Shown: piece by piece, positions 2,405 through 28,801 of the stretch
How the letters are laid out: each line of letters opens with the position of its first letter
Numbering within the stretch: the first letter of the stretch is position 1
DNA from: Sporanaerobium hydrogeniformans
Lineage (GTDB): Bacteria > Bacillota > Clostridia > Lachnospirales > Cellulosilyticaceae
Length of the DNA stretch: 64,000 bases
Assembly: GCF_002735925.1 (NCBI RefSeq)
Contig: NZ_PEDL01000006.1
Span: forward strand, 62,001-126,000
Direction of reading: 5' to 3'
The notes under the pieces: generated by a model
Told to the model about the DNA's origin: nothing
Databases searched by the model: none
Seen by the model: only the letters and a program-made list of their open reading frames with translations
Program-made: the position numbers and the translations under genes

Positions 2405-2688
2405 ACAAAAACCTTCCGCTCTTAATCATCATTAAGAGACGAAAGGTTGTATTTCCGCGTTACCACTCTCATTTGCATCCTCTAAGGCTGCACACTTCAC
2501 TCTTCTATAACGGGAAGACCCGCTGCCACCTACTTTTATTTCAGTACAGAACTTAACGATGAGTTCATAAAATTTGCTTTACTATTTCACACCATCCAAT
2601 AGCTCTCTGAAAAAGCGCCTCTTACTACTATTTCGTTTCATTGTCTTTAGCTTTTTTCATTTAAAAGTGTTTTCTTACACTATTTTCA
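2405..2688 (-). promoter_or_regulatory. T-box riboswitch of leuS (CTC leucine specifier)
   Basis: On the minus strand the leader carries the conserved T-box core AGAGTGGTAACGCGGAAAT (2451-2469), followed by a terminator hairpin (arms 2411-2426 and 2431-2447) ending in a T-run. The core would pair with the terminator's 5' side to form the antiterminator. Upstream lies a stem I-like region with an AGTAGTAAGAGG segment. A GAA-CTC-ATC stretch places a CTC leucine codon (complement of 2561-2563) where the specifier loop should be. Uncharged tRNA-Leu would favour read-through into leuS. The specifier was assigned by eye. Confidence 0.9.
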
Positions 2689-25573: not shown

Positions 25574-25589
25574 GATTTCGTATTTATAT

Positions 25590-25686
25590 AAAGGGAATGA
25601 AGTGCTCCCTTGGGAAACCAAAACCGCTTATTAAGCTAATGACTTCTGTACATTCTTTGTTACAGGACTCATTGGCTTTTTTATGT
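25590..25686 (+). promoter_or_regulatory. Fluoride riboswitch (crcB motif) with terminator
   Basis: The aptamer follows the known layout: GGGAATGAAGTGCTCCC, then AAACCGCTTATTAAGC, then TAATGACTTCTG. GAAGT (in the first block) pairs with ACTTC (in the last), as GAGGCC/GGCCTC does in the Thermotoga example. Between the first and second blocks there is a small extra hairpin, TTGG-GAAA-CCAA (25610-25621). The expression platform is a terminator: AGCTAATGA-CTTCTGTA pairs with TACAGGAC-TCATTGGCT and is followed by six T. Because the terminator's 5' arm overlaps the aptamer, fluoride binding should prevent termination and switch the antiporter on. Confidence 0.88.
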
Positions 25687-25712: not shown

Positions 25713-26888
25713 ATGTTAACTAGTTTAGCTCTTATCTTTTTACTTGGTCTTATTTTAGGAAGTATTTTCTCTAAATTAAAACTCCCTAGCCTTTTAGGCA
25801 TGTTATTTACAGGTATTCTATTAGGCCCTTATGTGCTTAATAGATTAGATACTTCCATCCTATCTATTTCAGCTGATTTGAGACAACTAGCCTTAGTCAT
25901 TATTTTAACTCGGGCAGGTTTAGCTCTTAATACCCATGACTTAAAAAAAGTGGGACGTCCTGCTATCCTCATGTGTTTTATTCCTGCAGTTTTTGAAATA
26001 ATAGGCATCCTACTTCTTGCTCCCCCATTATTAGGAATCTCTTTACTTGATGCTGCCATCATGGGAACTGTTGTTGCTGCTGTCTCGCCAGCAGTCATTG
26101 TCCCCCGTATGTTAAAACTAATGGAAGAAGGGTACGGTGCTAAGAATAGTATACCCCAACTGATTATGGCCGGTGCCTCCGTGGATGATATTTTTGTGAT
26201 TGTATTATTTACCTCTTTCACTGCTTTGGCTGCAGGTGGAAGTTTCACACTGGCAACAATCCTTCAAATTCCCATTTCTATTATTTTAGGGATCGTCGTA
26301 GGTATTCTCTCAGGACTCGGATTAGTGATACTATTTAAAAACTTTCATATGAGAGACTCCGCTAAAACACTCATCTTATTAAGTATTGCTTTCTTACTCA
26401 TTGCTCTTGAAAAAGCACTTAAAGGAACCATTCCATTATCCGGATTATTGGCAGTTATGAGTATGGGGGCAACGCTTTTCCAAAAATATACTCCTCTTGC
26501 CAAACGTTTATCTAGTAAATTTTCTAAACTATGGGTAGGTGCTGAAATCTTACTCTTTGTGTTAGTTGGAGCAACCGTTGATCTGAAATATGCTGCCTCA
26601 GCAGGCATTATCGCTCTTTTTATTATATTAGGAGCTCTCCTCTTTAGGATGTTAGGCGTATTTCTCTGTCTCTTAAAAACAAATTTATCTTTAAAGGAAA
26701 GGATATTTTGTATGATTGCCTACTGTCCAAAAGCAACTGTTCAAGCAGCCATCGGTTCTATCCCCCTTGCTATGGGACTCGGTTGTGGTCAGATTGTTTT
26801 AACCGTGGCTGTCCTTTCTATCCTTATAACAGCACCTTTAGGCGCTTTAGGTATAGATATAAGTTATAAACACTTCTTAGAACACTAA
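25713..26888 (+). CDS. Cation/proton antiporter under fluoride control
   Basis: A 391-residue membrane protein of the monovalent cation:proton antiporter superfamily with about twelve helices. The conserved acidic pair is in GASVDDI (Asp158-Asp159), the position of the ion-binding aspartates in CPA families. Na+/H+ antiporter-like genes are among those reported downstream of fluoride riboswitches, next to CrcB and CLC-F. A role in fluoride resistance, by fluoride or proton exchange or by pH balance, is therefore inferred from the riboswitch. No crcB or eriC gene is in the window. ATG after GAGGAGG. Confidence 0.9.
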   Translation: MLTSLALIFLLGLILGSIFSKLKLPSLLGMLFTGILLGPYVLNRLDTSILSISADLRQLALVIILTRAGLALNTHDLKKVGRPAILMCFIPAVFEIIGILLLAPPLLGISLLDAAIMGTVVAAVSPAVIVPRMLKLMEEGYGAKNSIPQLIMAGASVDDIFVIVLFTSFTALAAGGSFTLATILQIPISIILGIVVGILSGLGLVILFKNFHMRDSAKTLILLSIAFLLIALEKALKGTIPLSGLLAVMSMGATLFQKYTPLAKRLSSKFSKLWVGAEILLFVLVGATVDLKYAASAGIIALFIILGALLFRMLGVFLCLLKTNLSLKERIFCMIAYCPKATVQAAIGSIPLAMGLGCGQIVLTVAVLSILITAPLGALGIDISYKHFLEH

Positions 26889-26923
26889 TATTACTTACAC
26901 TTCCCCTATCTATTTTTTCAAAT

Positions 26924-27000
26924 AACTAAATTTCAGTTTGTTGAGGTGTTTTACACATTAGACTACTAAAAAGAAAGGGATAGGGGTGTTCTCAGGGCCC
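26924..27000 (-). other. Conserved 3' flank of structured RNA copy A
   Basis: Read on the minus strand after the closing stem, this stretch shows ACACCCCT, a T-rich run (CCCTTTCTTTTT), and at its end CAACAAACTGAAATTTA. Copy B shows the same three blocks in the same order at nearly the same distance. The closing 19-bp stem plus the T-run may act as terminator; the distal block is unexplained. Confidence 0.6.
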
Positions 27001-27193
27001 GCAAGTAAGGGAGCTCTTCACCAGCTTCTCGGTCCTCGGATGGGTAAAATCTAAGTTCAGTCCAATAGGCTAACGGTCCTACCTATCACAAGAAAGGCAC
27101 TTGTGATAACGTCCCTAAAAGCAGCCTATAGGACTTCTCTAAGATTTTACATCCATCCTGTGGAGGAAGCTTGCGAAGAGCTCCCTTACTTGC
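27001..27193 (-). ncRNA. Structured non-coding RNA, copy A (class not established)
   Basis: No coding frame covers this GC-richer segment. Read on the minus strand, it folds into a multi-branched structure. A 19-bp perfect closing stem joins 27175-27193 to 27001-27019. Inside are GTAAAATCT with AGATTTTAC, AGTCC..ATAGGCT with AGCCTAT..GGACT, and the hairpin ATCACAAG / CTTGTGAT. Loops and joints such as TTCCTCCACAG, CTGCTTTTAGGGACGTTATC, GATAGGTAGGACCGTTAG and GAGGACC are identical in copy B, while the stems differ by compensatory changes. That pattern is direct evidence for a conserved RNA fold. It may belong to a known orphan class of clostridial RNAs (raiA motif is one to test), but I cannot assign it by eye. 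Confidence 0.85.
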
Positions 27194-27251
27194 TAGCCAA
27201 TGTTTTATCCTGTTCCTATTTTTTTATCTTTCTTATTCTTCTACTACAGTG

Positions 27252-27284
27252 ATCATACTATAGTATGATATTCCATACCCTCAA
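27252..27284 (-). promoter_or_regulatory. Promoter of RNA copy A with a perfect 18-bp palindrome
   Basis: On the minus strand, TTGAGG (27279-27284) and TATAGT (27257-27262) lie 16 bases apart, giving a start near 27250, about 57 bases before the closing stem. The -10 is embedded in the perfect palindrome ATCATACTATAGTATGAT (27252-27269), a plausible repressor operator. Confidence 0.6.
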
Positions 27285-27315
27285 CATTTTAGAGGACTCT
27301 TACTAGTAAAACAAA

Positions 27316-27345
27316 GGTATTGACTTATCCATCATGTCTTTAGAA
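27316..27345 (+). promoter_or_regulatory. Possible promoter of RNA copy B
   Basis: TTGACT at about 27320-27325 is a good -35. The best -10 candidate is TAGAAG with a 15-base spacer, which is weak. A start within 27345-27380 would be needed for copy B. Confidence 0.35.
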
Positions 27346-27384
27346 GGAATATGAAAAATTTAAACTTTCGTGATACAGTGCAGA

Positions 27385-27576
27385 GCAAGAAAGAAGGCTT
27401 TTCGCAGGTTTCCTCCACAGACTTTCGCAAAGTCTTGGTGAAGGCCTGTAGGCTGCTTTTAGGGACGTTATCGCAAGTGTTCTTCTTGCGATAGGTAGGA
27501 CCGTTAGTCTACAGGACTGAGCCTAGAGTTTGCCAAGGCGAGGACCCAGAAATCGGAGAAAAGCCTTCTTTCTTGC
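27385..27576 (+). ncRNA. Structured non-coding RNA, copy B (class not established)
   Basis: Same RNA as copy A, on the opposite strand and transcribed away from it. The 19-bp closing stem pairs 27385-27403 with 27558-27576. Compared with copy A this stem changes at several positions, yet stays perfectly paired. The central hairpin is ATCGCAAG / CTTGCGAT, so an A-T pair of copy A is a G-C pair here. The stem TGTAGGC / TCTACA replaces TATAGGC / CCTAT. The long arm CTTTCGCAAAGTCTTGG pairs with CCTAGAGTTTGCCAAGG at 14 of 17 positions. The core joints are unchanged. The only open frames across it are short and unconvincing. Confidence 0.85.
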
Positions 27577-27645
27577 GGCCGCGCCGACACCCCTTCTTTT
27601 TCTTGACTTCTAGGACGCCAAGAGTACTTCAACAAACTAAAATTT
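27577..27645 (+). other. Conserved 3' flank of structured RNA copy B
   Basis: GACACCCCT, then TTCTTTTTCTT, then CAACAAACTAAAATTTA (27629-27645): the same order of blocks as beyond copy A, so the inverted duplication extends past the folded core. Confidence 0.6.
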
Positions 27646-27654
27646 AAAAAATCT

Positions 27655-27704
27655 AAAGAGACTACTATCTCACACATTTTAATGTGCTTGATAATAGTCT
27701 CTTT
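27655..27704. terminator. Bidirectional terminator between RNA copy B and the Cys-rich gene
   Basis: AAAGAGACTACTAT (27655-27668) pairs with ATAATAGTCTCTTT (27691-27704) with one mismatch, and CACATT with AATGTG extends the stem inside. Flanking A/T runs allow use in both directions. Confidence 0.8.
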
Positions 27705-27739
27705 CTATTTACCTAAGAACTAGAGCCCTTTTTCATCTC

Positions 27740-28801
27740 TTATTTGTTACAGCTACATCCTTTTGAACAGCTACATGGATTACAACTGCATCCTTTTTTG
27801 CAATGTTCTTCTTTTTCACCTAATGTCTTTGCGTCTGTTCCTACTTCTAAAGGCTGGATACTTGGTTCTAAAAGATCACCACATACGAAGTCTAAGCAAC
27901 TATTTTCTTCACTTTCCTGAATAGGAGCAAGTTTTGGTGGTACAGTAAGTCCTGCATGTTGGAATTTGTATTGGATAAAGTAAATAACCTTAAAGTATAA
28001 AGTTAAGCCAATAGCAAAGCAACTATCTCCATAACCTACTACTTTTGCAAGTGCTTGAACAGAAATCCCTTGTTGTACAGTATTATTAGCATTAAAGCGT
28101 GTAAAAGCTTTCATATCTTGGCAGCCACATACACCATGTTGATTCGCTACAAAACCGATGAAATTAATAGTAGGTACTAACTTGTTGCATCCCATTGGAT
28201 TCTCAGGTGCATAAGAAATACCATAAGGTGTATAGAGATCAAGAGATACACAAGATGGATTAGTACATGGATCAAAGCCTTCATCATGTTCGCTTCCTAA
28301 ATAACGAACTGTCATCATTCCTTGGCTAACTACTTTGCAGTAGCTATCGATTAAGGTAACCGCAAAGGTTACTTCGATATCTTTTAAAGTTACTCTACTT
28401 AAGTTAGGATTGTTTTTTGCAGGTTTAATTTCAGAAAATCTACATCCACATGGATCTACAAAGTTAAAGTCAATGTCTACTACTTGAAGTTGAATTTTAT
28501 CAGCATCTTCAAAATCTTTTTTGCATAAGCCAGAAAATAGAATATTTGTCTTTTTGTCACAGTCGCAAGAACCTACTTCTGTAAGCTCGTCAAGGCATAC
28601 TGTACGGCAAAGGTTAAGACCACTTTCATCAAATACAACGGGAGCCATCATCGTTAGGAGTTTAGGTTCTCCAATAGGTGGGCACATAGCAACTTGTTGA
28701 AGAGGACTTTCTTTATTTTCAGCAGGATGACAAATGTCACAAATTCCTGCATTAGGTTTCGCAAAAAACTTCACGTCGTTATTACAACAACATTTATTCA
28801 T
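27740..28801 (-). CDS. Cys-rich protein, probable spore-coat or exosporium type
   Basis: A 353-residue protein with about 29 cysteines (8%). It begins MNKCCCNN, carries CDICH near residue 21 and PCGCRF near 118, and ends in a Cys/Ser/Lys tail, CKKGCSCNPCSCSKGCSCNK. There is no signal peptide and no transmembrane helix. The middle, about residues 80-290, is beta-rich. I do not know a named family. A sigma-K-like promoter (28865-28892), the lack of export signal and the Cys density together suggest a cross-linked spore-surface protein made in the mother cell; this is inference. The start has a CAGGAGGTTT ribosome binding site. It is divergent from the gene at 28989. Confidence 0.8.
   Translation of the reverse strand: MNKCCCNNDVKFFAKPNAGICDICHPAENKESPLQQVAMCPPIGEPKLLTMMAPVVFDESGLNLCRTVCLDELTEVGSCDCDKKTNILFSGLCKKDFEDADKIQLQVVDIDFNFVDPCGCRFSEIKPAKNNPNLSRVTLKDIEVTFAVTLIDSYCKVVSQGMMTVRYLGSEHDEGFDPCTNPSCVSLDLYTPYGISYAPENPMGCNKLVPTINFIGFVANQHGVCGCQDMKAFTRFNANNTVQQGISVQALAKVVGYGDSCFAIGLTLYFKVIYFIQYKFQHAGLTVPPKLAPIQESEENSCLDFVCGDLLEPSIQPLEVGTDAKTLGEKEEHCKKGCSCNPCSCSKGCSCNK

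Follow-up and report, generated by a model that had tools for sequence, protein, structure and literature searches.

Several described systems resemble in part the locus presented here. MITEs, for example those of the IS630 type with a TA target, are short and protein-free, carry terminal inverted repeats, are dispersed between genes, have TA-flanked ends and are recognized by an empty site in relatives; known MITE families are narrow. REP, BIME and REPIN sequences with their RAYT (TnpA-REP) transposases, as well as ERIC-type palindromes, are folded intergenic repeats that occur many times per genome, as singles and as inverted doublets. In the HEARO/IscB RNAs and the TnpB omega RNAs, a structured unit lies at the transposon end with its 3' foot at the element end, and the protein is often not nearby. 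Finally, the raiA motif RNA (ModT), ROOL, GOLLD and OLE are large structured RNAs of Clostridia and other Firmicutes (PMC11706538, PMC12286853).

The locus studied here lies in a window of 64,000 nucleotides, the whole stretch of DNA that was analysed, from Sporanaerobium hydrogeniformans. It shares with MITEs, with the REP group and with the HEARO and omega RNAs the features listed above, and differs from each of them. Unlike for MITEs, no parent transposon with the same ends was found in its own genome (G000) or in the related genome G001, and its interior forms a complex fold that has been conserved in several clostridial families. Unlike the REP group and ERIC-type palindromes, its folded units, which we call rods, are about 190 nt long with conserved internal loops and are enclosed by outer terminal repeats with TA; moreover, the window's genome is without the Y1 transposase of the REP/RAYT systems. 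In contrast to the HEARO and omega RNAs, outward rods stand at both ends, each with a long perfect closing stem, and there is no HEARO match and no nuclease beside any copy. In contrast to raiA, ROOL, GOLLD and OLE, neither the rods, those of homologues included, nor a centre segment of about 490 nt found in G001 matched an Rfam family (E up to 0.5-5).

Together, the copies form a wide, undescribed, protein-free and dispersed element family whose folded unit is under selection. No description of it was found in the literature that was searched, a negative result that carries little weight. Repeats dispersed in bacterial genomes are usually bound to one lineage and decaying, whereas this complex fold, which Rfam lacks, recurs in several families of Clostridia and reaches tens of copies in a genome, its stems rewritten and its core letters intact.

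Results

A first-pass annotation of the sequence had described the island at 26924-27645 as two inverted copies of one unit. This holds true: a single rod-shaped fold is present twice, in inverted orientation, and its pairs covary; the arms at 26999-27148 and 27429-27578 are 80% complementary over 150 nt, and the rods measure 193 and 192 nt. The core blocks quoted in the annotation are identical in the two rods, the paired hairpin change is as described there (ATCACAAG/CTTGTGAT becoming ATCGCAAG/CTTGCGAT), and both 19-bp closing stems are perfect. The island ends that it gave are nearly exact element ends, but the terminal inverted repeat had been overlooked. The features are as follows (window positions):

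26927-27646, no strand: whole twin-rod mobile element, bounded on either side by a terminal inverted repeat; about 17 full copies and one internally deleted copy in the genome
26927-26947, + strand: left terminal inverted repeat (TAAATTTCAGTTTGTTGAGGT), 90% complementary to 27626-27646; other copies have the same end
27001-27193, - strand: left rod unit, 193 nt, 3' foot toward the element's left end; fold, low pi, covariation
27194-27384, no strand: centre between the rods; promoter pairs not above chance level
27385-27576, + strand: right rod unit, 192 nt, 3' foot toward the element's right end; fold, low pi
27626-27646, - strand: right terminal inverted repeat, pairing with the left one; TA outside AATTTCAG

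Folded as RNA, the left rod reaches -112.9 kcal/mol (z -11.6) and the right rod -93.7 kcal/mol (z -7.3), and none of 200 shuffles was equally stable in either case. The annotation had placed the unit in no known RNA class; it had named the raiA motif as a candidate but noted that the usual raiA gene is not beside it. The Rfam 15 covariance models agree that the unit is of no known class and is not raiA: they gave no match in 26800-27800 at E up to 5, save noise far below the gathering scores. The only Rfam families in the whole window, both outside the element, are a T-box leader at 2432-2650 (-) and a fluoride riboswitch at 25584-25655 (+). The latter immediately precedes a cation/proton antiporter-like gene at 25713-26888 (+), and the stop of this gene lies before the twin-rod element.

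The window's own genome (99.66% complete) contains 34 exact occurrences of the core motif TAGGGACGTTATC, most of them at a distance of about 100 nt from the end of a contig. DNA search and a first covariance model recovered 34 full rods, that is about 17 near-identical elements, and there is also an internally deleted copy (G000:C24:12959-13292). The elements are mostly seen as contig ends because the repeats broke the assembly, which may slightly flatter the identity from copy to copy. What had been taken for a stand-alone local pair of RNA genes is a dispersed, high-copy element with terminal inverted repeats. Its ends agree among the copies (AAATTTCAGTTTGTTGGGGTG), and TA stands directly outside 24 of the 32 ends collected in this genome, against 0-7 of 32 at neighbouring offsets; this TA could be part of the terminus rather than a duplicated target.

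Evidence for insertion comes from the thiD-thiE spacer, which is filled by a 602-bp element in G001 and is short and without the element in G019 and G023; the orthologous spacer of G016 has an unrelated gene inside. This is one site, with a spacer too diverged for the exact junction to be read or a duplication to be shown. The features that define MITEs (terminal inverted repeats, no protein, multiple dispersed copies) were found here, together with insertion polymorphism at that site. Terminal-repeat searches of G000 and of G001, whose genome is one contig of 4,714,237 bases, gave almost only elements and their remnants, with no autonomous parent sharing these ends and no larger transposon bearing the repeat. 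No protein family recurs beside the rods, and no protein cargo or travelling protein was found. Among the candidates that were set aside, a terminal-repeat-like match at G000:C3:109740 lies inside a LacI-type gene and is due to chance, a possible 15-kb composite element of G001 (4259607-4275047) contains ordinary genes, no match pointed to a phage, plasmid or viral origin, and an IS200/RAYT mobilizer is absent from the window's own genome.

A DNA search of 58 relatives revealed no homologue. The covariance-model search of clostridial genomes suggested in the first-pass annotation recovered the same fold at the levels of family, order and class. Within the family, model R1 detected rods in 3 other genomes. 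Model R2, for which four genomes were used, detected them in 15 of the order's 392 genomes searched (nine from this family), and model R3 did so in 4 more genomes out of 391 sampled across the class. Where copies were fully counted, there are 2-38 per genome (28 in G001, 31 in G002 and 38 in G008). The shared core is plain in G508 (CTTAGTGAA...TGTTTGAGCCTGCGAGTTT...ACGAACTTAG), and the same fold was found in Vallitalea with a looser core pattern and the covariance models. The exact core pattern had no occurrence in the genome_contigs collection, and the looser-pattern matches L110 and L116 (no model match) and L113 (weak, E 0.02) were treated as chance.

The architecture of the element differs between genomes. 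Outward-facing twins occur also in three other genera (G001, G002, G018), and in G001 the terminal repeat doubles as the outer foot of each hairpin. G008 and Vallitalea have mostly single rods, and in G508 a single hairpin of about 270 nt makes up the entire element. An old duplication had been proposed for the two rods of the window. The recurrence of the twin layout in other genera is in favor of such an age, but the two rods of this genome are closer to each other (79% alike) than either is to the rods of other genera (58-62%).

A fold was predicted solely from the left rod of the window and compared with 16 rods from 4 genomes in an alignment made without structure. In this alignment 81.6% of the cells pair, against 38-51% for slid partners and 69.9% for shuffles, and 31 of the 53 pairs have changes on both sides. 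The values are higher for 38 diverse rods (both-side changes in 36 of 40 pairs, 96.3% of the cells pairing), in an alignment that was fitted to the model and leans to structure. Constant letters are found in the internal loops (CUUAG-n-GA opposite GARCUUAG, UUUUAG opposite CGUU, and UGUUUGA opposite GAGUU); across families, these blocks are fixed and the stems change freely. Both conserved secondary structure and covariation, which characterize structured RNAs, are present, and the check on homologous stems put forward in the first-pass annotation came out in its favor.

Rods and flanks also differ in their variation. The mean pairwise difference (pi, 16 copies each) is 0.010 in the left rod and 0.013 in the right rod, compared with 0.128 and 0.175 in the stretches between rod and terminus. 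Consistent with these values, the rods of two fully assembled copies differ at 6 of 385 sites and their outer stretches at 23 of 138, so that the outer flanks vary about tenfold more than the rods. Mere hitch-hikers should vary evenly; therefore, the rod is either constrained or locally homogenized. Since the rods change far more slowly than the outer flanks, we take the folded single strand to be selected at many sites after insertion.

Discussion

Selection for RNA structure had been proposed for this locus. The part of this proposal that concerns a selected fold is supported by covariation in homologues and by the lower variation of the rods, but the production of an RNA is at most likely, and the excess of G-U over A-C mismatches, which would mark one strand as the RNA, is weak. 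G-U outnumbers A-C among stem mismatches by 50:27 in the first rod set, by 49:34 in an alignment not fitted to the model and by 66:42 over 168 rods (p = 0.026), and the two are nearly equal (25:24) once contexts are pooled over genomes. This excess leans weakly toward the strand that had been chosen as RNA. Outward transcription from a central promoter had also been claimed; the promoter scan of the element gave one weak promoter-like match, no more than expected by chance, and there is no terminator. Our best reading is that the folded strand is under selection, either as RNA or as single-stranded DNA, and, in our view, an RNA function of the rods is likely.

On balance, we consider it somewhat probable that the island is a non-autonomous, MITE-like, protein-free element of Clostridia, mobilized in trans, whose selected folded strand works as RNA. 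The elements might have been moved by a TA-targeting transposase of the IS630/Tc1-mariner type, encoded elsewhere or since lost; we infer such a trans-acting enzyme from one feature, the TA-flanked ends. The folded strand would be an RNA read antisense to a host gene and bound by a trans-acting factor, which is our committed guess.

The position of the copies relative to genes has to be considered here. They are intergenic, and their commonest place is immediately after a stop codon, with the 3' foot of the rod toward the stop; numerous element ends in G001 touch a stop codon or overlap it. Among single rods having genes on both sides, 84 of 106 have a stop codon on the 3'-foot side. Where the two genes are in tandem, this foot is directed at the stop of the upstream gene in 62 cases versus 14 (p = 2e-8); these counts take every simple open frame as a gene and leave near-identical copies unmerged. 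Tolerance of insertion past stops explains the position but not the orientation. If the folded strand works as RNA, insertions that place the rod in the sense strand of messages might be mostly purged, which would give the orientation bias. Replication direction could also cause this bias, the discordant loci being too few to separate it from gene direction.

The latter point also enters another, rather unlikely explanation, in which the rods are hairpins of single-stranded DNA serving as substrates of strand-specific transposition, as in REP/REPIN doublets (Y1/HUH transposase) or attC sites. With the same low probability, insertion on the lagging strand would account for singles, inverted doublets and orientation relative to genes. 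Single rods and inverted pairs do both exist, strong hairpins stand at both element ends, and the 62:14 orientation fits replication-coupled insertion, since most genes run with the fork. Against it, Y1_Tnp (PF01797) has no match in the nearly complete G000 or in G012, G176 and G156, all of which carry rods, and TA-flanked ends are atypical for Y1 elements. Moreover, the conserved core of about 150 nt is far above the size of known transposase-bound hairpins, and the G-U excess leans, weakly, to the strand other than the lagging-strand template.

The rod might instead have been adopted by the host as a 3'-end element. Its reverse complement (that of the CUUAG strand) would then be the 3' UTR of the upstream gene and protect or end the message. 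The stop codon on the 3' side of most single rods, many with the foot at the stop, and the G001 elements that reach into stop codons agree with such a role, whereas insertion tolerance also predicts clustering near stops. In addition, the window rods have no T-run after the stem in either orientation and are therefore not intrinsic terminators, and on the mRNA strand A-C mismatches would outnumber G-U, which speaks weakly against this explanation. We regard it as doubtful.

It is equally doubtful that the family is an RNA-based mobile element, in which the conserved folded RNA, retained across Clostridia by selection, and not just the DNA ends, would direct insertion past stops in a fixed orientation. 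This proposal, at the same low level of confidence, counts with the rods a second noncoding unit of G001 with its own terminator. About 8 G001 elements have a conserved noncoding segment of about 490 nt between or beside the rods (L173 2151-2636; L143 6257-6738; L174 3301-3784; also L146, L134, L138, L175 and L171). It ends in an intrinsic-terminator-like hairpin whose stem sequence varies between copies, and is possibly a second, larger structured RNA. A solitary partial homologue of this segment (81% over 104 nt) is present in the window's own genome (L218, G000:C15 302-405, - strand), with an IS-like fragment on one side and a small HTH gene on the other.

Two further explanations are very improbable. 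Functionless foldback repeats, whose arms stay complementary through template-switch repair of imperfect palindromes, would fit the long, near-perfect arms, and paired changes are known to arise by quasipalindrome correction, in which case they would be mutational rather than compensatory; the internal-loop blocks, however, are identical across families despite completely changed arms, and rod variation is about tenfold below that of the outer flanks. As to the divergent pair of structured RNA genes, sharing a central promoter and derived from an old duplication at this locus, its structure and covariation are real, but about 17 genome copies with terminal repeats, promoters not above chance and single-hairpin relatives in G508 without room for an internal promoter make it hardly credible.

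The conservation of this fold and its fixed orientation past stop codons make three questions directly testable: what binds the fold, what moves an element lacking its own protein, and whether it serves the host at gene ends.

Some copies depart from the common layouts. In G001, a minimal derivative of 129 bp (L171, G001:C1:3059636-3059764) has both terminal repeats with only rod fragments between them. The rods of G008 at L181, L184 and L187 are extended by additional outer arms (GCAGACTGTCC / GGACAGTCTG) and, outermost, by a purine-rich stem, which give a three-tier foldback of about 450 nt. In G410 (L247, L242), a palindrome, CACAAGGGGACTGTCCCC, adjoins the rods and resembles repeats linked to RAYT transposases.
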